The notes beneath the pieces are model-generated. The model searched no databases, had not been told where the DNA came from, and worked only from the letters and a program-made list of their open reading frames with translations. A DNA stretch of 21,692 nucleotides from a virus: IMG/VR virus record IMGVR_UViG_3300047562_000451, positions 1 through 21,692 of that record. The stretch is one strand, 5' to 3'. The position numbers and the translations under genes were made by a program. This document shows, in pieces, positions 8,002 to 16,185 of this stretch (position 1 is the stretch's first letter; each line of letters begins with the position of its first letter).

Positions 8002-8657
8002 GCAGAGAAGCGCCACCCCCGTATTCTGGGACAGCCCAACTGTGGGCTGAAGATCTGACCGATTATTTGACGCGCAGTCGGTCTCAACTTGCGTTTAAGG
8101 ATGCAAACGACAGGGCGACAGAAGACGGTATTATCTTGTGGGATACCACTGGCTACCCAGTCGTGTCAAAGGACGGTGAGTTCCGGCAGATCGTACTGGC
8201 CGATGGTCACGGCGATTTTATTGTGAGTTCAAATCTGACATTTACCACCAACACTGAGACGACGATACCGTTCACGGCTGCCGGCACACTTCACGGACTA
8301 TCATTAAACGGCAACGATATTGTATTTGAGGAAGCCGGTCACTATCTGTCCGCGTTTTCGGCGCAGCTATACTCAACATCATCGTCAACGGTCAATTTTG
8401 TGTTCTGGTCTCGGATCATTGCCGCAGCAGGCGGGTCAACGGATGCCTATACCATGCGCAATGCGCTTCACCAGAACGGCTCCGCCTTAGTCGTAAGTCG
8501 GACGGGTGTGTTTGAGGTTCAGGCAGGTGACAAATTGAGGGCGTTGGCGGCAGTGGATAGTTCAAGCGCATCGCTTCAAGCTTTTGCCGCAAATCAGATT
8601 GCAACAGAGCCAGCAGCGCCGGCTGCAACGCTATCTGTTCTCAGGGTGCATCAGTGA
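7998..8657 (+). CDS. Virion protein with N-terminal anchor helix and C1q/TNF-like beta head
   Basis: 219 residues, ATGA overlap with the nozzle gene. The first ~45 residues (PPYSGTAQLWAEDLTDYLTRSRSQL) form a helical segment of the kind seen at the start of small podovirus structural proteins. The C-terminal ~140 residues have the strand order of a jelly-roll: TTIPFTAAGTLHGLSLNGN, then VFEEAGHYLSAFSAQLYS, NFVFWSRI, VVSRTGVFEVQAGDKLRALAAV. The phrase F-x-x-A-G-x-Y-x-x-x-x followed by F-x-V-x-A-G-D resembles C1q/TNF-like trimeric heads. I infer a trimeric surface knob, a further candidate adhesin. Fold assignment is by pattern only. Confidence 0.7.
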   Translation: MSREAPPPYSGTAQLWAEDLTDYLTRSRSQLAFKDANDRATEDGIILWDTTGYPVVSKDGEFRQIVLADGHGDFIVSSNLTFTTNTETTIPFTAAGTLHGLSLNGNDIVFEEAGHYLSAFSAQLYSTSSSTVNFVFWSRIIAAAGGSTDAYTMRNALHQNGSALVVSRTGVFEVQAGDKLRALAAVDSSSASLQAFAANQIATEPAAPAATLSVLRVHQ

Positions 8658-8661
8658 TATA

Positions 8662-9030
8662 ATGGACGAGCTTGAGCAGGAGTTGAATCGTTGCAGAAAG
8701 TGGATTGAGGGGGCATTGGAGCATAGTGGCGGAACTCATACTTTTGATGATATTTGTGGCATGGTTAGGTCTGGCGCGCTTCAGTTTTGGCCCGCCGATG
8801 ATGCCTGCGCGATCACTGAAATTATTTTTTACCCGCGCAAAAAGGTTCTTCATATCTTTCTGGCCGGCGGGAATATGGACACGATCGTTGATATGAACGC
8901 ATCAGCAGAGCACTTTGCAAAGCTCAACGGGTGTACCGGAATGAGTGTTGCAGGCCGAAGAGGGTGGTCAAAAGTTTTATCGCATAAAGGTTATTCGGAG
9001 TCTCACACGACTCTCAGCAAGGAGATATAG
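8662..9030 (+). CDS. GNAT-like small phage protein in the internal-virion block
   Basis: 122 residues from ATG 8662; the frame is open to 8584 but that part lies inside the upstream gene, so this first ATG after its stop is preferred. The sequence has a helix (LEQELNRCRKWIEGALEHSGGTH), an acidic DDI segment, LQFWPADDACAITEIIFYPRKKVLHIFLAGG strands, and ends with GCTGMSVAGRRGWSKVLSHKGY. That layout, with a late AGRRGW...L...GY motif, recalls the C-terminal half of GNAT acyltransferases and the similarly placed small GNAT-like proteins of podoviruses (T7 gp13 is of this type). No clear acetyl-CoA loop is visible, so catalysis is doubtful. It sits directly before the ejection-protein block. Confidence 0.68.
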   Translation: MDELEQELNRCRKWIEGALEHSGGTHTFDDICGMVRSGALQFWPADDACAITEIIFYPRKKVLHIFLAGGNMDTIVDMNASAEHFAKLNGCTGMSVAGRRGWSKVLSHKGYSESHTTLSKEI

Positions 9031-9032
9031 AC

Positions 9033-9497
9033 ATGTCAGGTGGCGGCGGCAAAGGCGGTTCACAATCATCAAAGGTAGAGATCCCACCGTGGGCAGAGGC
9101 GGCAATGCAGGAGAACCTGCGTAAAGCCGAGCAGTTCGGCGAGATAGGGTACATGCCGTACTACGGGCCTTCTGTTGCGGCTTTCACCCCGATGCAGGAG
9201 ACGGCCATGCAGAGCGCCTATGATGCAGGAGCCGCGTATGGCCTAGCGCCGCGTGGTGGCAATGCCCTTGCTGGTATCCCGCAGGCGCAGGAGTTTGCCG
9301 GCGGCATACGCGGGTATTCATCGGGCGACCTGTTTGATCAGGCGGTTGCTGAGTTTGAGGCAAGACGACCTGGACAGGCTGAAGCGTATAACCGAATGTT
9401 TATCAATCCAACGCCGCAGCCAGCACCAGTATTTGATCCGCAAGACCCCTCAACTTGGGGTCAATACTATCCTTGGTTTAATTTTAGGGGATTCTGA
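9033..9497 (+). CDS. Internal virion/structural protein, N-terminal type of the A/Q-rich family
   Basis: 154 residues, ATG 9033 with the strongest ribosome-binding site of this block (AAGGAGAT, 9019-9026). It begins with a flexible MSGGGGKGGSQSSK leader, followed by IPPWAEAAMQENLRKAEQFG and YMPYYGPSVAAFTPMQETAMQ. This start is common in phage proteins that continue into long Ala/Gln-rich helices; here the chain stops after a Pro-rich end (PTPQPAPVFDPQDPSTWGQYYPW) and the Ala/Gln-rich part is the next gene, which overlaps by TGATG. I infer two pieces of what is a single protein in related phages, or two cooperating internal virion proteins. Exact function unknown. Confidence 0.7.
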   Translation: MSGGGGKGGSQSSKVEIPPWAEAAMQENLRKAEQFGEIGYMPYYGPSVAAFTPMQETAMQSAYDAGAAYGLAPRGGNALAGIPQAQEFAGGIRGYSSGDLFDQAVAEFEARRPGQAEAYNRMFINPTPQPAPVFDPQDPSTWGQYYPWFNFRGF

Positions 9498-10657
9498 TGG
9501 GCGCACAAGCACAGGGTGGCGGTAAGGGCGGCCAGATGCCGAATATGTTTGAGCAGTCTTCTATGGCTGCTACTGGTGGCATGATGGGCGCTGCTGGCGA
9601 GATGGGCTTCCAGCCGATGATGCTTGACCCTAGCCAGTATGGCGCTAACGGTAGAGCTAACGTCTACGCCCAGCAGGTTGGGGCGAATGACATGAGCGCC
9701 GCGCAGACTACGCAAGCGGACATTGATCGGTTTTACAACCCGTATGTTGGGCAGGTTGTAGACACCTCAATGCAAGACATTGAGCGGGCGCGATTGCAGC
9801 AGCAAAACGCTGCGGCGGCGCAGGCTCAAGCGGCGGGCGCATTTGGCGGCTCTCGCGGCGCTCTGATGGAAGCAGAGGTAGGGCGTAATGCTCTGGAGCA
9901 GGCTGCACAGACAGCGGCTCAGTTACGCGCTCAGGGCTATTCACAGGCGGCTAACCTTTCGCAGCAGGATGTGGCGCGTCGTCAGGCAGCATCGCAGTTC
10001 AACGCAGCGCAGGCGTTGCAGTCGGCTCTGGCCAATCAGGGCGCGAATCTACAAGCTGCTCAGACGCGGGCGCAGCTCGGTATGCAGGGGTCAATTGCCT
10101 CTCAAGCAAACGCTCTACAGGCGGCGCTGGCGAATCAGGGCGCTCAACTGGCCGGCTCTCAGCAGAGGTTAGCGGCAGGGAACCAGTTGGCCAATATCGG
10201 CAACCTCGGATTTAATCAGGCTCAGAGTGTTCAGCAGCAGATGGCGCAACAGGGCGCATTGCAGCAGATGCTACAACAGCAGTTGATACAGGCCGCTCAG
10301 GGCCAGTACGCAGGGTATCAAGGTTTCCCCAGTCAGGCGCTTGGGTATCTGTCTCAGGCGCTTGGGTCGTCTCAGATCCCGCAGAATCAGACCACATCAA
10401 GACAGCCTGGGCTGTTTGACTATCTGACGCTGGGGATGTTCTCTGACATTCGCTTGAAGGAAAACATTCGACCCCTCGGCGCGACAAAGAGCGGCCACAA
10501 GGTCTACGAGTGGGATTGGAACGACGCGGCCAAGGGCTTAGGTCTTGAAGGCAGAGCGCGTGGCGTTATCGCCCAAGAGGTCATGGAGACCCGCCCAGAT
10601 CTGGTGATGACAGACGAGAGCGGATACCTCAAGGTCAACTACGGAGGGATTCACTGA
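9497..10657 (+). CDS. Ala/Gln-rich internal virion-type protein with C-terminal peptidase S74 chaperone domain
   Basis: 386 residues. N-terminus MGAQAQGGGKGGQ echoes the previous gene's leader. Residues ~75-290 are Ala/Gln-rich helix, including FYNPYVGQVVDTSMQDIERA, AGAFGGSRGALMEAE and two copies of a repeat around ALANQGANLQA / ALANQGAQLAG (DNA ~10015-10050 and ~10110-10150). Residues 316-386 form a short S74 domain: SDIRLKENI (candidate autocleavage dyad S316/K321), then RGVIAQEVMETRPDLV and GYLKVNYGGI. Known: S74 domains are intramolecular chaperones that usually trim themselves off trimeric fibres. Here it caps a helical, ejection-type protein; see findings. Whether it cleaves is unknown. 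Confidence 0.8.
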   Translation: MGAQAQGGGKGGQMPNMFEQSSMAATGGMMGAAGEMGFQPMMLDPSQYGANGRANVYAQQVGANDMSAAQTTQADIDRFYNPYVGQVVDTSMQDIERARLQQQNAAAAQAQAAGAFGGSRGALMEAEVGRNALEQAAQTAAQLRAQGYSQAANLSQQDVARRQAASQFNAAQALQSALANQGANLQAAQTRAQLGMQGSIASQANALQAALANQGAQLAGSQQRLAAGNQLANIGNLGFNQAQSVQQQMAQQGALQQMLQQQLIQAAQGQYAGYQGFPSQALGYLSQALGSSQIPQNQTTSRQPGLFDYLTLGMFSDIRLKENIRPLGATKSGHKVYEWDWNDAAKGLGLEGRARGVIAQEVMETRPDLVMTDESGYLKVNYGGIH

Positions 10658-11019
10658 TGATCTTGCAATCAATTCTGGGCGGTCTTTACGACTATGCGAA
10701 GCAAGACAGGCCGATGCCTGACTATATGTCAGGGGTGCCGGATTACACGGCCCAAGACCCGCTGATGACGCAGATGCGTCAGCCCTCTCAGGCGCTCGGG
10801 GTAATGGGCCTATCTCCACATGCCCCGCAGATGAACATGACGCCAACGGGCAATATGTCGCCGGTTAACATGGCGGGGCCGGTTCAGCAGCGGGGTCTGC
10901 TGGACATGATCGGGGATCGATTTGCAGAGAACTACGCTAATCGATACGAGCGAAAGAACAGAATGCCCTACGCAGGCTTGCAGCCGATGACCCCGGGGCA
11001 GCTAACACCCTACATTTGA
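10657..11019 (+). CDS. Small Met/Pro-rich phage protein, internal-virion block
   Basis: 120 residues, TGATG overlap with the S74-bearing gene. Low-complexity and rich in Met, Pro, Gln and Gly (SPHAPQMNMTPTGNMSPVNM), with a short helix at each end (ILQSILGGLYDYAKQDRPMPDY; LLDMIGDRFAENYANRYERK). No membrane segment, no recognised domain. Likely disordered and possibly packaged in the virion, since its neighbours on both sides look like internal virion proteins. No better function can be assigned. The stop is followed after 7 nt by the next start. Confidence 0.65.
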   Translation: MILQSILGGLYDYAKQDRPMPDYMSGVPDYTAQDPLMTQMRQPSQALGVMGLSPHAPQMNMTPTGNMSPVNMAGPVQQRGLLDMIGDRFAENYANRYERKNRMPYAGLQPMTPGQLTPYI

Positions 11020-11026
11020 GGTAATC

Positions 11027-12217
11027 ATGGGCTTACTCGACAGTCTTTTTGGTGGTTCATTCATAGAAAGCCACACCAGGCCGACACCGTTCAGCGCAAC
11101 TGGCGGGATGCCTGCCGCATTGCCGCCATCGAGACCCGCATCTGCGCCAACGCCCGCGATGCCGGTGCCGCCATCGGCCCCAGCAACCCAGCCGTCTTTT
11201 TTTGAGCGACTTGGATCGGGCGTCAAGGACTATCTCAGCGATCCCGAGAACAGGGCGCGATTGGCTGCTGGATTTAACACCATGCGGCTTAATCCAGATC
11301 CCAATATCGCACGGATGGCGCAGTCTCAGATTGAGACATCGCAGCAGATGCGGCTTTTGAAGCAGCAAGGGAACCAGACCGCAATCGCACTAGAAACAGC
11401 AGCAGCTAGGGAGTCAAACCCAGCAAGGAAAAAGCAACTTGAGGATGCGGCTGTTTTGGTGCGAAATCAGCCGGAGATGGCGGTAGCCGCGTCGAAGCTT
11501 TTGTTTAAAACCGCAACGCCGCAGAGTTACGCGCCGAGGGTAGATCCCCAAACAGGGCAGTTATACATCACCCAATATGACCCGACCACGGGGTCGGTTA
11601 GTCGCGTAGATGTCCCAGGCGCAATCGGCGAGACGCCAGCGCAACAATCTGAGCGAGAGCTAAAAGCGGAAACAAGGGCTGTTGATATAGAGAACGCGGT
11701 AGCGGCGGGAACAGCCGCATTCTCGCAAGTACAAAATATTGATACAACAATTGGGCGGCTAGAGAGCGCACTAGATGCGCTTGATAACGGCGCTCAGTCT
11801 GGGGCGCTGCGCCAATACATTCCATCGTTTGACGCGGCGACATCGTCGCTCAGGGCTACTGCCAACCAGATGGGCATTGATATTGTCAATTCAGCAACCT
11901 TTGGCGCATTAAGTGCATCAGAACTAAAGCTTGCCTTGGATACAGGGCTTCCATTGGAATTGCCGCCTAATCAGCTGAGAAAATACATAGCTGAAAAGAT
12001 AGCAGCACAGACAAAACTCAGAAATCAGCTTTTCTCAACAGCCCAGAGGCTGTCTTCTGGGAAAATTCCGTACAGCGACTTTATTAAGCAGTATAAGCCA
12101 AAAGGTGGGACCGAGGTGTTTCGCGGCGTAGGCGGCGGCGGAATACAAAGACCGCCCAGCATTACCGAAGAAGAATGGAATGCAATGACACAAGAACAGC
12201 GAAACCTATTTAAATAA
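11027..12217 (+). CDS. Helical internal virion (ejection-type) protein
   Basis: 396 residues. ATG 11027 follows TTGAGGTAAT, giving a GAGG ribosome-binding site; the capsid gene has nearly the same leader. The N-terminal MGLLDSLFGGSF segment is amphipathic. Residues ~28-57 are a Pro/Ala-rich linker, and the body is mostly helix with coiled-coil potential (MRLLKQQGNQTAIALETAAARE; AETRAVDIENAVAAGTAAFSQVQNIDTTIGRLE). A conserved-looking segment near the C-terminus, ATFGALSASELKLALDTGLP then a basic helix and FIKQYKP, recurs in virion-associated phage proteins. The final ITEEEWNAMTQEQRNLFK is a short acidic helix. Inferred role: ejected or lumenal head protein. No enzymatic motif seen. Confidence 0.68.
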   Translation: MGLLDSLFGGSFIESHTRPTPFSATGGMPAALPPSRPASAPTPAMPVPPSAPATQPSFFERLGSGVKDYLSDPENRARLAAGFNTMRLNPDPNIARMAQSQIETSQQMRLLKQQGNQTAIALETAAARESNPARKKQLEDAAVLVRNQPEMAVAASKLLFKTATPQSYAPRVDPQTGQLYITQYDPTTGSVSRVDVPGAIGETPAQQSERELKAETRAVDIENAVAAGTAAFSQVQNIDTTIGRLESALDALDNGAQSGALRQYIPSFDAATSSLRATANQMGIDIVNSATFGALSASELKLALDTGLPLELPPNQLRKYIAEKIAAQTKLRNQLFSTAQRLSSGKIPYSDFIKQYKPKGGTEVFRGVGGGGIQRPPSITEEEWNAMTQEQRNLFK

Positions 12218-12226
12218 GGTGATGTA

Positions 12227-14092
12227 ATGGCAGAATTTACTTCAGAGCAAATGCAGGCAATTCTTGAGGCAAGGGCAAAGCTTCAGGCTGAGCCGCAACG
12301 CATTCGCACAATGGCACAGGGCGCCACTTTAGGATTCGCTGATGAAATCGAGGCTCTTGTAAGATCTGCCGTTCCAAATGGCCCACAGTATGAAGATGTA
12401 AGAAACGAGATCAGGGCAAAGCTTTCTGCGTACAAGCAACAAAACCCAAAGGCCGCTTTAACTTATGAGCTGGCCGGTGCTTTGGCTCCATCGCTGGCTA
12501 TGATGGCCACAGGTGTTGGCGCTCCCAGCGGGGCGGCATCATTGAGTCGTATTGTAGGCACGGGTGCATTAGAAGGCGGGCTTTATGGTTATGGCGCATC
12601 TGAGAGTCCTGAGTCGGCTGGTCAAGAAACCATTGTTGGTGGTGCCACTGGCGCGATTGCTGGCCCTGCTTTACAGCTTGGCTTACGGGGTGGAGCAGAT
12701 GTTGCATCTAAGCTGATTAACTTTTTGAGAGAAAAGATTGGAGAAAAGCCGGCAACTGCTGTGCAGGCGGAGCTACAAAGACTACAGGAGCAAACCGGCA
12801 AGTCAGTAGAGGAAATTATCGCAGACCTTCAATCTGGGCGGTTGATGTCCGACAACCGCACGTTAATGATTGCATTAAAGAACATTGTGTCAGAAGGCGG
12901 AGAGTCTGGGCGCAGTGTAGTAGAGCGAACTCAGGCTCGTGCAGGCGAAACAGCAGATATTGCTATGCGGGGCTTACAGCGAGAGCTGGCGCCAAATATG
13001 GACGAGAATGTTATAAGATCAATGCGCCAAACTGATGAGCAATTAAAAGCCGCAGAGCGTGAGGCATACGGATCTGTTTTCGGGGCTAACCAATTTGTTC
13101 CTGAGTCCGTAGCAAATGAAATGCTTCGAGCCGCACAGGCAATGCCGGATCTTGCCGAAGAGATAATGACCCGCTACAAGGCAGAGGGCAGAATCGTTCC
13201 GCCATTTAAAGTGGCCGATAACGGAGAGCTACAGTTTGTTCGGGCGCCTTCATTGGAAGATGCAGAGATTATGCGCCGCACGTTAAAAGATCGCGCCGAC
13301 CTATTCTATCGAAGCGGGCAAGGCACAATGGGCGAGGTCGTCTCTCAGATTGAAAAGAATTTGAGGCGCAACATTGATGAGCTATCTCCACAGTTACAGG
13401 CTGTAAGGCAGACCGCCGCCCAGACCAGAACAGGCAGAGACGCATTTGAGGCCGGACGTAAGGCTCTGTCGATGAACGTGGACGAGCTTGAACTGCTAAT
13501 GGAATCATTCACGTCAGAGGCCTCAAAAGCGTTTAGGGCTGGCCTAATGCACGCGATTCGCAACAAAGTACCGAGGCAAGGGACAACACTTAAAAACCTT
13601 GCAAACGAAGATGTGCAGTTTGGTCAGGTTTTGAGAACAGCTTTAAGCGACAGAGATGTCTCTCAGCTAACAAGACAGCTTGAACTTGCCGGTGAAACCG
13701 CAGATGTAGCAAAAGGAATTCCAACAACGGCTGGTAGCCCTACAGCCCCATTGACGCAAGAGCGCGCCAGAGCCGGCATGAGGGGATCTATGCAGGACGT
13801 TGGTAGGGTAATGTCTGGCGATCCGACAATCGTTGTTGATATGCTAGATCGCTTATTAAAACGAGATCGGCCCACATTAACAGATCAGCAAAGAATGCAG
13901 GTCGTCGAGGTCTTGTTCTCTCGTGACCCAGAAATGGTACGCAGGGCATTAACTAACGAGACGCCAATGTCTGAGCTTGCCGCTATGGCCGGACAGGTGG
14001 CGGATGCGTTAGTGTCCGGCGGTAGAACTGCTGGCACAATACAGGCTACGCAAGAATCTACTGGCTTACTGCCAAATGTTGAGGGCAAATAA
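12227..14092 (+). CDS. Large internal virion/ejection protein with Gly/Ala-rich hydrophobic region
   Basis: 621 residues; AAGG in TAAGGTGATGT precedes ATG 12227. The N-terminal AQGATLGFADEIEAL is a motif I have seen in phage internal and minor structural proteins. Residues ~80-175 are unusually rich in Gly and Ala with a mildly hydrophobic character (ELAGALAPSLAMMATGVGAP; GGATGAIAGPALQLGLRGGA), resembling glycine-zipper segments that could insert in a membrane during DNA ejection. The rest is charged helix (RERL/QLE-type repeats, LEDAEIMRRTLKDRADLFYR, VVSQIEKNLRRNIDELSPQL). It directly precedes and overlaps the portal gene. Function is inferred from position and composition; a lytic transglycosylase motif was looked for and not found. 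Confidence 0.7.
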   Translation: MAEFTSEQMQAILEARAKLQAEPQRIRTMAQGATLGFADEIEALVRSAVPNGPQYEDVRNEIRAKLSAYKQQNPKAALTYELAGALAPSLAMMATGVGAPSGAASLSRIVGTGALEGGLYGYGASESPESAGQETIVGGATGAIAGPALQLGLRGGADVASKLINFLREKIGEKPATAVQAELQRLQEQTGKSVEEIIADLQSGRLMSDNRTLMIALKNIVSEGGESGRSVVERTQARAGETADIAMRGLQRELAPNMDENVIRSMRQTDEQLKAAEREAYGSVFGANQFVPESVANEMLRAAQAMPDLAEEIMTRYKAEGRIVPPFKVADNGELQFVRAPSLEDAEIMRRTLKDRADLFYRSGQGTMGEVVSQIEKNLRRNIDELSPQLQAVRQTAAQTRTGRDAFEAGRKALSMNVDELELLMESFTSEASKAFRAGLMHAIRNKVPRQGTTLKNLANEDVQFGQVLRTALSDRDVSQLTRQLELAGETADVAKGIPTTAGSPTAPLTQERARAGMRGSMQDVGRVMSGDPTIVVDMLDRLLKRDRPTLTDQQRMQVVEVLFSRDPEMVRRALTNETPMSELAAMAGQVADALVSGGRTAGTIQATQESTGLLPNVEGK

Positions 14093-16185
14093 TGAGACCA
14101 GAACCAAAGAGCAAGCAAGAGATTGAGTCCATTGCGCGTGAGGCGATCACGGATGCGGTTGATTTCTGTGAATCAGAGATAGCCGAAGATCGCATCAAGG
14201 CACAGCGCTACTTTGATGGCGAGGTTGACATTGGAGAGGAAGAGGGCCGCTCAAAGGTGGTGGCCACAAAGGTGCGCGACACAATTCGAGCGATTAAGCC
14301 AAGCTTGATGAGGGTGTTTCTGTCAACGGACAAGCCGGTTGAGTATGTCCCACGAGGGCCGGAGGATGTGCAGGCAGCAGAGCAGGCCACCGAATACATG
14401 CACTATGTGTTCAATGAGCACAATGGCTACCGCGTCTTAAATGACGCATTCCATGATGCGCTGGTCAAAAAGTCTGGGATTGTGAAGGTTTATTGGGACA
14501 CATACCAGGAGCAGCAGACCTACGAGTTTTTTGGTCTTAACGAGATGGAGTATCGTGCCATCACATCAGATGATGATGTTGAAATACTGTCTGAGACCGT
14601 GACCACTGAGATTCAGGTTGACGAAATGGGCATGGAAGTCGAAATGCCCAAGTATGACCTGAAGGTGGCGCGGTACAAAGACACCGGCAAGATCTGCATT
14701 GAGTCGGTGCCGCCAGAAGAATTCTTTGTTGATAGAAACGCCCGCAATCTTGAGTCCGCGTTTTGCGTGGGCCACCGAACGGAAATTCGCGTAGGTGATT
14801 TGGTTGAGATGGGCTATGACTTTGATGAGGTCTCAGAGCTGTCTGGTCTTCAGCACTCCGATACGTTCTCGGATGTTGAGAAGTACGAACGGCGCGGCTA
14901 CGACTCAGATTATTCTGACGAGGATACGCAAGACCCCGCCATGAAGCTGGTGGCGGTCACCGAAGTGTACATGAAAATTGATGTGGAAGGCACGGGCATT
15001 CCTACCTTGCAAAAGGTTATGTTGGGCGGCAACCAGTACAAGCTGCTTGATGTTGAGCCGTGCTCAGTTATTCCTTTTGCGGTGTTTGAGGTTGATCCAG
15101 AGCCGCACACCTTCTATGGCCGGTCGATAGCGGATCTGATCATCAACGATCAGGATGCGGCAACAGCAATGCTGAGATCAGTGCTTGATAACGTTGCGCT
15201 CACAAACAGCCCTCGTCTTGAGGTTGTTGATGGTGCCGCCAACATTGATGATGTGCTCAACAACGAGATTGGCGGGCTTATTCGGGTTAAGCAGCCCGGA
15301 TCGATCACTCCGCAGGTTGTCCCGTTTGTTGCTGGGCAGACTTTGATCGCGCTCCAGTATCTGGATGCCGAGATTGAGGGTAAAACTGGCGTCACCAAGG
15401 CGTCTTCTGGGTTGTCACCCGATGCACTCCAATCGACGACCGCTGCTGCGGTAGCGGCCACCGTGCAGGCACAAGCCGGGCAAATTGAGGTCATGGCTCG
15501 CAATCTGGCCGAGGGCGGTATGCGTCAGATGTTCCGGCTGATGCTGAAGTGCATGGTTGAGAACGTTGATGAAGAGCAAATGATGCGGATTGCGGGCCAG
15601 GATTACGTCCCGGTTGACCCGAGATCGTGGAACACCGCGATGGACGTTTCTGTCAATGTGGGGTTAGGCACCGGCAGAGAAGAGCAGAAGCTGGCGGCAT
15701 TGATGCAGGCGTTTCAGGTGCAGAGCCAGATCATGCAGGCATACGGCCCAGCTAACGGGATGGTGACGCTTACGAATATCCGCAACACGCTTTCAGATAT
15801 TTTGGCATTGAACGGTGTTCGGAACTCAACCAGATACTTTATGCCAATGAACCCGCAAACAGAGCAGATGCTGATGCAGCAGCAACAACAGCAGCAGCAG
15901 CAACAGCCGCAGCAGGATCAGCAGGCGCAGGCTTATTTGCAAGCTGAGATGATGAAGGCTCAGGCCAAGGCGCAGACCGACATGGCCAAGCTTCAGGCAC
16001 AGCAGCAGCATGACATGGCGAAGCTTCAGATCCAGATGCAGAAGGCGGCGTCAGATGATGACCTGGCGCGTGACAAGATGGATCAGGATCTGATCCTCAA
16101 TGCGGCTGAGATTGTCGGGAAGTACGGCACGGCGGTCGATATAGCCCGAATTAAGCAGATGCAGGCGGCACCGCGTGGATATTAA
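14092..16185 (+). CDS. Portal protein, SU10/P22-like
   Basis: 697 residues, close to the length of P22-like portals. GAGGG at 14081-14085 serves ATG 14092, which overlaps the preceding TAA. The N-terminal SKQEIESIAREAITDAVDFCESE, then RIKAQRYFDGEVDIG, EEGRSKVVATKVRDTIRAIKPSLMRVF and VEYVPRGPEDVQAAEQATEYM match the clip/wing layout of this portal class. The central ESVPPEEFFVDRNARNLESA and IADLIINDQDAATAMLRSV, followed by GVTKASSGLSPDALQSTTAAAV (stem/crown helices), are typical. The C-terminal ~110 residues are Gln-rich helix with a run of ten Gln at ~596-605. Function: dodecameric DNA entry/exit ring at one capsid vertex. The following gene starts inside its last 11 bases. Confidence 0.9.
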   Translation: MRPEPKSKQEIESIAREAITDAVDFCESEIAEDRIKAQRYFDGEVDIGEEEGRSKVVATKVRDTIRAIKPSLMRVFLSTDKPVEYVPRGPEDVQAAEQATEYMHYVFNEHNGYRVLNDAFHDALVKKSGIVKVYWDTYQEQQTYEFFGLNEMEYRAITSDDDVEILSETVTTEIQVDEMGMEVEMPKYDLKVARYKDTGKICIESVPPEEFFVDRNARNLESAFCVGHRTEIRVGDLVEMGYDFDEVSELSGLQHSDTFSDVEKYERRGYDSDYSDEDTQDPAMKLVAVTEVYMKIDVEGTGIPTLQKVMLGGNQYKLLDVEPCSVIPFAVFEVDPEPHTFYGRSIADLIINDQDAATAMLRSVLDNVALTNSPRLEVVDGAANIDDVLNNEIGGLIRVKQPGSITPQVVPFVAGQTLIALQYLDAEIEGKTGVTKASSGLSPDALQSTTAAAVAATVQAQAGQIEVMARNLAEGGMRQMFRLMLKCMVENVDEEQMMRIAGQDYVPVDPRSWNTAMDVSVNVGLGTGREEQKLAALMQAFQVQSQIMQAYGPANGMVTLTNIRNTLSDILALNGVRNSTRYFMPMNPQTEQMLMQQQQQQQQQQPQQDQQAQAYLQAEMMKAQAKAQTDMAKLQAQQQHDMAKLQIQMQKAASDDDLARDKMDQDLILNAAEIVGKYGTAVDIARIKQMQAAPRGY
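15877..15930 (+). repeat. CAG/CAA repeat encoding a poly-glutamine tract in the portal C-terminus
   Basis: The reading frame here runs through ten consecutive Gln codons (mixed CAG and CAA) and then QQ-D-QQ-A-Q. Mixed codon use suggests the tract has been kept at protein level rather than being a fresh slippage product, but the CAG-rich DNA is still prone to length variation. It lies in the Gln-rich C-terminal helix of the portal, in the region expected to face the capsid interior. Confidence 0.85.

Follow-up and report, generated by a model that had tools for sequence, protein, structure and literature searches.

A short Peptidase_S74 domain as a facultative C-terminal module of podoviral DNA-ejection proteins

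Organization of the locus

The window analyzed here is an IMG/VR virus fragment of 21,692 bases. Its gene order runs from a tail protein, an adaptor of the SU10 type (PF24175, 2e-34), and fibre-like genes via the ORFs starting at 9033, 9497, 10657, 11027, and 12227 to the portal, the scaffold, the major capsid protein, and a holin (Table 1). Capsid and portal place the virus among the podoviruses related to SU10, LUZ24, and phiEco32, the nearest being Octadecabacter Antarctic DB virus 2 (capsid 74.5% identical, portal 47%). The order tail, N-terminal ORF, body, internal proteins, portal, scaffold, and capsid is conserved among the relatives. In Octadecabacter DB virus 2, the gene at the position of ORF 11027–12217 is annotated as "cell wall hydrolase", and ORF 10657–11019 has no family match among Pfam and PHROG profiles. 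Stop–start overlaps of the form TGATG are found at both the 9033/9497 and the 9497/10657 junction, which suggests translational coupling of the ejection genes; a scan for promoters and terminators yielded nothing above chance. A small gene at 8584–9030 (phrog_22172, unknown) lies ahead of the ejection genes in almost every relative, and the gene in this position of Octadecabacter DB virus 2 is annotated as acetyltransferase.

Table 1. Features of the ejection-gene region and the data on which each assignment is based
Feature	Position	Strand	Basis
Partner ORF ahead of the body gene, 154 aa, matching the N-terminal end of the ejection family	9033..9497	+	phrog_4287 positions 1-93, 2.7e-6
Ejection-protein body with C-terminal S74, 386 aa	9497..10657	+	ORF; phrog_4287 2.4e-15, mostly via S74
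Junction SRQPGLFDYLTLGMF	10397..10441	+	corresponds to the natural end of homologues with no S74, such as L043 (SKQPGLFDYLTLGASMF-stop)
Short (ejection-type) Peptidase_S74, residues 316-386, and stop codon	10442..10657	+	Pfam 4.3e-10; PDB profile matches; AlphaFold2
Putative dyad Ser316 (10442-10444) to Lys321 (10457-10459); predicted cut F315/S316	10442..10459	+	invariant in 32/32
Small ORF following S74, 120 aa, its start overlapping the S74 stop (TGATG)	10657..11019	+	ORF call
Probable second internal/ejection protein	11027..12217	+	phrog_26675 3.3e-10, residues 218-357; conserved order
Probable third internal/ejection protein, 621 aa	12227..14092	+	phrog_5880 3.6e-25 (unknown function); conserved order ahead of portal
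Portal protein	14092..16185	+	phrog_1216 1.6e-150

The S74 domain and the body ahead of it

The Pfam match to Peptidase_S74 spans residues 316–370 and scores 40.2 bits, above the curated cut-off of 22. Built from this domain together with its relatives, a sequence profile finds S74 domains of known structure, namely the long tail fibre 6f45 (4.8e-7), the neck appendage 3gud (4.1e-5), and MyRF 7dc3 (4.1e-5). The domain starts with SDIRLKEN, in which S316 and K321 are spaced by five residues, and the motif GVIAQEV follows approximately 40 residues C-terminal of S316. Because of the Pfam score, the profile matches, and the positions of the dyad, the S74 call is right and not a chance match; the first-pass annotation had read a short C-terminal S74 domain from these same motifs, and both the domain and the stated length of 71 residues from S316 onward are borne out. 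The AlphaFold2 model of the segment is of good quality (mean pLDDT 86). A Foldseek search with the full model or the S74 monomer model gives no PDB match at E ≤ 0.001; the monomer model has 26 BFVD matches at this threshold, several of them named intramolecular chaperone domain. No further S74 domain is found in the window at E ≤ 0.001—ORF 9497–10657 is the sole carrier—and the earlier remark that the fibre genes carry none holds for this 21.7 kb fragment, itself incomplete.

The body features a strongly biased composition, with 47 Ala and 45 Gln among the 186 residues from 86 to 271, and the AlphaFold2 model ahead of residue 316 contains helix and coil only, partly at low confidence. The protein had been described as helical and of low complexity, and possibly ordered into a helical bundle: composition and predicted helices agree with the first two terms, but heptad periodicity does not rise above that of shuffled sequences.

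Assignment to the ejection proteins

The most plausible identity of the 386-residue protein is that of a DNA-ejection protein of podoviruses, belonging to the SU10/phiEco32 type (phrog_4287). With S74 removed, residues 1–315 give no phrog_4287 match, and the assignment, therefore, rests on the relatives, the upstream ORF, and the gene order. Homologues of the body lacking S74 match phrog_4287 unaided over positions 84–318 (L009, 3.3e-12; L017, 1.1e-10; L091, 2.1e-12). A body-only HMM does not reach the proteins of SU10, PVA1, and AH02, and its match to LAh6 is weak and composition-prone; hence, the link to phrog_4287 is bridged via these S74-less relatives. The core member of the family is phiEco32 gp24 (1.2e-108), and SU10_022 is its counterpart. 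The SU10 proteins gp20–24, among which SU10_022 is counted by gene number, are part of the virion and are missing from it once the genome has been released (PMC9509320). Because of family membership and gene position, the ejection role is well supported, and we infer it for the virus of the window. Phage relatives were found neither at the DNA level nor by tblastn of one S74-less body, and a body-alignment search of bacterial and archaeal genomes returned none.

Members of phrog_4287—phiEco32 gp24, SU10_022, and Salmonella 7-11 gp20—share with the protein of the window an N-terminal segment, a helical body, and the gene position of an internal protein. The window differs by splitting the family into two adjacent ORFs of 154 and 386 residues and by a very diverged body sequence. 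P22 (gp7, gp20, gp16) and T7 (gp14–gp15–gp16) likewise encode their internal proteins as a group close to tail and portal genes, and the ejection proteins of these two phages are not known to carry S74. The S74 protein of AH02 directly precedes a "P22-like injection translocase" and matches phrog_598 "DNA ejection".

If the protein were instead part of a tail fibre or needle and had been mistaken for an ejection protein, this would account for the homologue of Octadecabacter DB virus 2 being annotated as "tail spike protein/chaperone". The fibre-family profiles that match ORF 9497–10657, however, cover essentially the S74 segment alone, and the model is helical and Ala/Gln-rich with no β-structure ahead of S74. 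Both the phrog_4287 matches of the relatives and of the upstream ORF, and the experimental ejection of an SU10 family member (PMC9509320), also speak against a fibre, making this explanation quite improbable. Among the body homologues found, none is a β-helical fibre, in line with the initial description of an internal, non-fibre carrier.

The counterpart of the upstream ORF adjoins the body gene in most relatives. Its length varies from 154 residues here to more than 1000 (L043:4568–7765 and L006:3188–5341 are among the long versions), and the long versions are arrays of approximately 20-residue repeats (FDPSGLQQQIAGLEGQ...) with coiled-coil/fibritin-like character. They pair mostly with S74-less bodies, although not independently of phylogeny: the shorter upstream ORF in the presence of S74 (median 162 versus 458 aa, p 8e-6 uncorrected) is phylogeny-dependent and comprises four independent pairs only.

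Facultative placement of S74

When viral contigs were scanned with an alignment of the body, 80 loci were found, and removal of duplicates left 72 body homologues. S74 is present in 19 of these 72 and absent in 53, a few of the latter being fragments. Most S74-less homologues end at the position equivalent to the start at S316: the window reads ...TTSRQPGLFDYLTLGMF followed by SDIRLKEN, whereas L043 reads ...TTSKQPGLFDYLTLGASMF-stop and L037 ...TTSRQPGLFDYLTLGLSL-stop. On a body tree calculated with S74 excluded (65 rows, 193 columns), the presence of S74 requires nine changes, at least five of which are forced by well-supported branches. Distant phages repeat this pattern, as the phiEco32 and SU10 proteins lack S74 and the homologues of 7-11, GAP52, and LAh_6 end in it, like that of the window. 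In L091 and L092, an unrelated C-terminal domain of approximately 70 residues, starting with CWVAREVYG, stands at the S74 site. As judged from these sequences, S74 is a facultative C-terminal module of ejection proteins. The alternative domain (CWVAREVYGE...PILKSIIRPFMDAKRK; L091:7827–8774, L092:7971–9002) has no Pfam match.

A short, separate type of S74 domain

The S74 domain is taught as a fibre-folding chaperone that trimerises β-helices, with MyRF as the odd exception. Members of this S74/ICA/CIMCD family, such as endosialidase NF, T5 pb1, the GA-1 neck appendage, and MyRF, share with the domain of the window the S-D-x-x-x-K start with its Ser/Lys dyad, the aromatic pair, the GviAQE motif, and the C-terminal position. 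They usually sit on a β-fibre or stalk, in contrast to the helical, low-complexity ejection protein described here. The domains of fibre type also run longer: 52–108 residues follow GviAQ in 91 fibre-type domains—a set drawn mostly from one seed, so that its spread is under-sampled—versus 29–45 residues in 32 ejection-type domains. The stretch from the Lys to the aromatic pair has a median of 16 residues in the ejection type and 21 in the fibre type.

In MyRF, the coiled coil of the C-terminal helix α4 is the main driver of trimerisation, with α1 forming a collar around it, and the same Ser/Lys dyad cuts only in the trimer (PMC8326128). The AlphaFold2 model of the S74 domain of the window features two long strands with a five-residue turn between them at the site of the MyRF helix α1, where the ejection type is shorter by approximately five residues. 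No long helix follows the last strand, and the chain stops a few residues past VNYG. By sequence length and by the model, the ejection-type S74 is devoid of the coiled-coil helix α4, which belongs to the full-length fibre and MyRF form but lies outside the Pfam model, and, in the model, of α1 as well.

Twenty-six ejection-type domains form one clade with an SH-aLRT of 97 in a tree of the S74 domain based on 83 columns only and a quick search. L085 had been labelled internal and falls outside this clade; it is a fibre by its own sequence, and its body match is weak. A tblastn search with an ejection S74 protein returned 49 phage records, many annotated as injection or ejection proteins; a fibre S74 returned 472, most of the named ones among the matches listed being tail fibre or receptor-binding proteins. 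Since the domains have their own clade and their partners are split in this manner, the S74 of ejection proteins looks like an old, separate lineage rather than a recent capture from a fibre.

The dyad Ser and Lys are invariant in all 32 ejection-type domains; they are also invariant across the sampled fibre S74 domains, so that part of this invariance may be structural. The S74 segment has a dN/dS of 0.05–0.29 in the eight pairs with usable dS, indicating purifying selection. Low dN/dS and the unvarying dyad together let the segment be read as a functional domain. The patchy distribution could also be that of a mobile remnant lacking function; given the purifying selection, the invariant dyad, and the single old clade, we regard this as very improbable.

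The earlier suggestion that S74 acts in trans, as a chaperone of the tail fibres encoded nearby, draws on the fact that all fibre genes of the fragment lack the domain. S74 is, however, known as an intramolecular chaperone, and the ejection type forms a distinct clade. Trans action is considered very unlikely because the L028 contig encodes an S74 of the ejection type alongside a complete one of the fibre type and because the gene order is identical in phages whose ejection proteins have no S74.

Proposed role during assembly

We favour, with a probability of roughly 0.52, a cis-acting, removable C-terminal assembly domain that is probably self-cleaved at F315/S316. The 386-residue protein would be the main chain of a podoviral ejection protein, carried inside the head and leaving it ahead of the DNA or together with it. 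S74 would fold in cis while its chain is being made or assembled and either aid oligomerisation or cover the hydrophobic C-terminus (PGLFDYLTLGMF) until packaging. Ser316 and Lys321 would then cut between F315 and S316, releasing the 71-residue fragment and leaving a C-terminus identical to that with which S74-less relatives are made. Since the helix that usually drives trimerisation is missing from the short form, the body or a partner would have to bring the chains together by oligomerising, and this association may supply the assembly trigger for cleavage. Of the previous proposal that the domain orders a helical bundle in cis, the cis action is retained; ordering as in fibres is not simply transferable to a domain with no trimerising coiled-coil helix.

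The putative cleavage, taken for itself, is somewhat favoured; its uncertainty stems from the missing α4, given that MyRF cuts only as a trimer, and from the residue preceding the dyad Ser, which differs between homologues and in two of them, L042 and L045, is Pro. Should S74 not cut, the second choice would be a permanent structural end domain—a plug, or a contact to portal or membrane—with the dyad kept for folding. The trimer dependence of MyRF cutting (PMC8326128) set against the helix-free domain of the window, the variable P1 residue, and the CWVAREVYG domain at the same site in two relatives, as expected of exchangeable ends, are all consistent with such an uncut domain. Against it stand the invariance of Ser and Lys despite the divergence of much else and the observation that most relatives function with precisely the C-terminus that cleavage would yield; we consider a permanent domain possible but doubtful. 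More speculative still is a generalization of the removable domain: minimal S74 domains with no trimerising helices of their own might serve internal virion proteins as assembly-sensing self-proteases that cut upon oligomerisation or portal loading, whereby assembly would license maturation of the ejection machine. This is unlikely on the present data.

Relation to known systems and annotations

Neither the S74 family nor the ejection family is new, and their combination is widespread in databases: it is found in Salmonella 7-11, Cronobacter GAP52, Vibrio PVA1, and Pseudomonas AH02. The combination is contained in phrog_4287 and in several GenBank records, that of AH02 naming it an intramolecular chaperone. 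The first-pass annotation treated an S74 domain on an internal protein as a departure from the rule; the carrier is indeed not a fibre, but the pairing itself was already present in annotated phages. A full-text literature search, whose coverage excludes most subscription papers, found no published discussion of S74 on ejection proteins. As far as can be told, what is new is that the module is placed facultatively, forms a clade of its own, and lacks the trimerising helix.

Few parts of the virion are as poorly understood as the ejection proteins, which often escape resolution in cryo-EM, as in SU10 (PMC9509320). A self-cut at a defined residue, if true, would give a handle on the timing of their maturation. 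A widespread short S74 on ejection proteins, under purifying selection and with no trimerising helix, would set the catalytic core apart from the coiled coil, so that the role of the core alone could be tested. For annotation, labels derived from S74, such as "tail spike/chaperone", can mislead for whole groups of podophage genes. Gp18 of MW805364.1 (L002:11458–12363), a "tail spike protein/chaperone", is an ejection protein by homology and probably owes its label to S74 alone.

Large proteins of up to 1123 residues also end in a short S74 (L013:1317–4685, L016:2818–6186, L015:1–1485), and that of L013 matches phrog_6121 "virion structural protein"; the short form is, therefore, not confined to close relatives of phrog_4287. 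In Roseobacter phage CRP-235, an 844-residue "hypothetical protein" (L022:5682–8216) features a transglycosylase-like N-terminal stretch and a C-terminal short S74; its chain possibly combines S74 with a lytic ejection protein.
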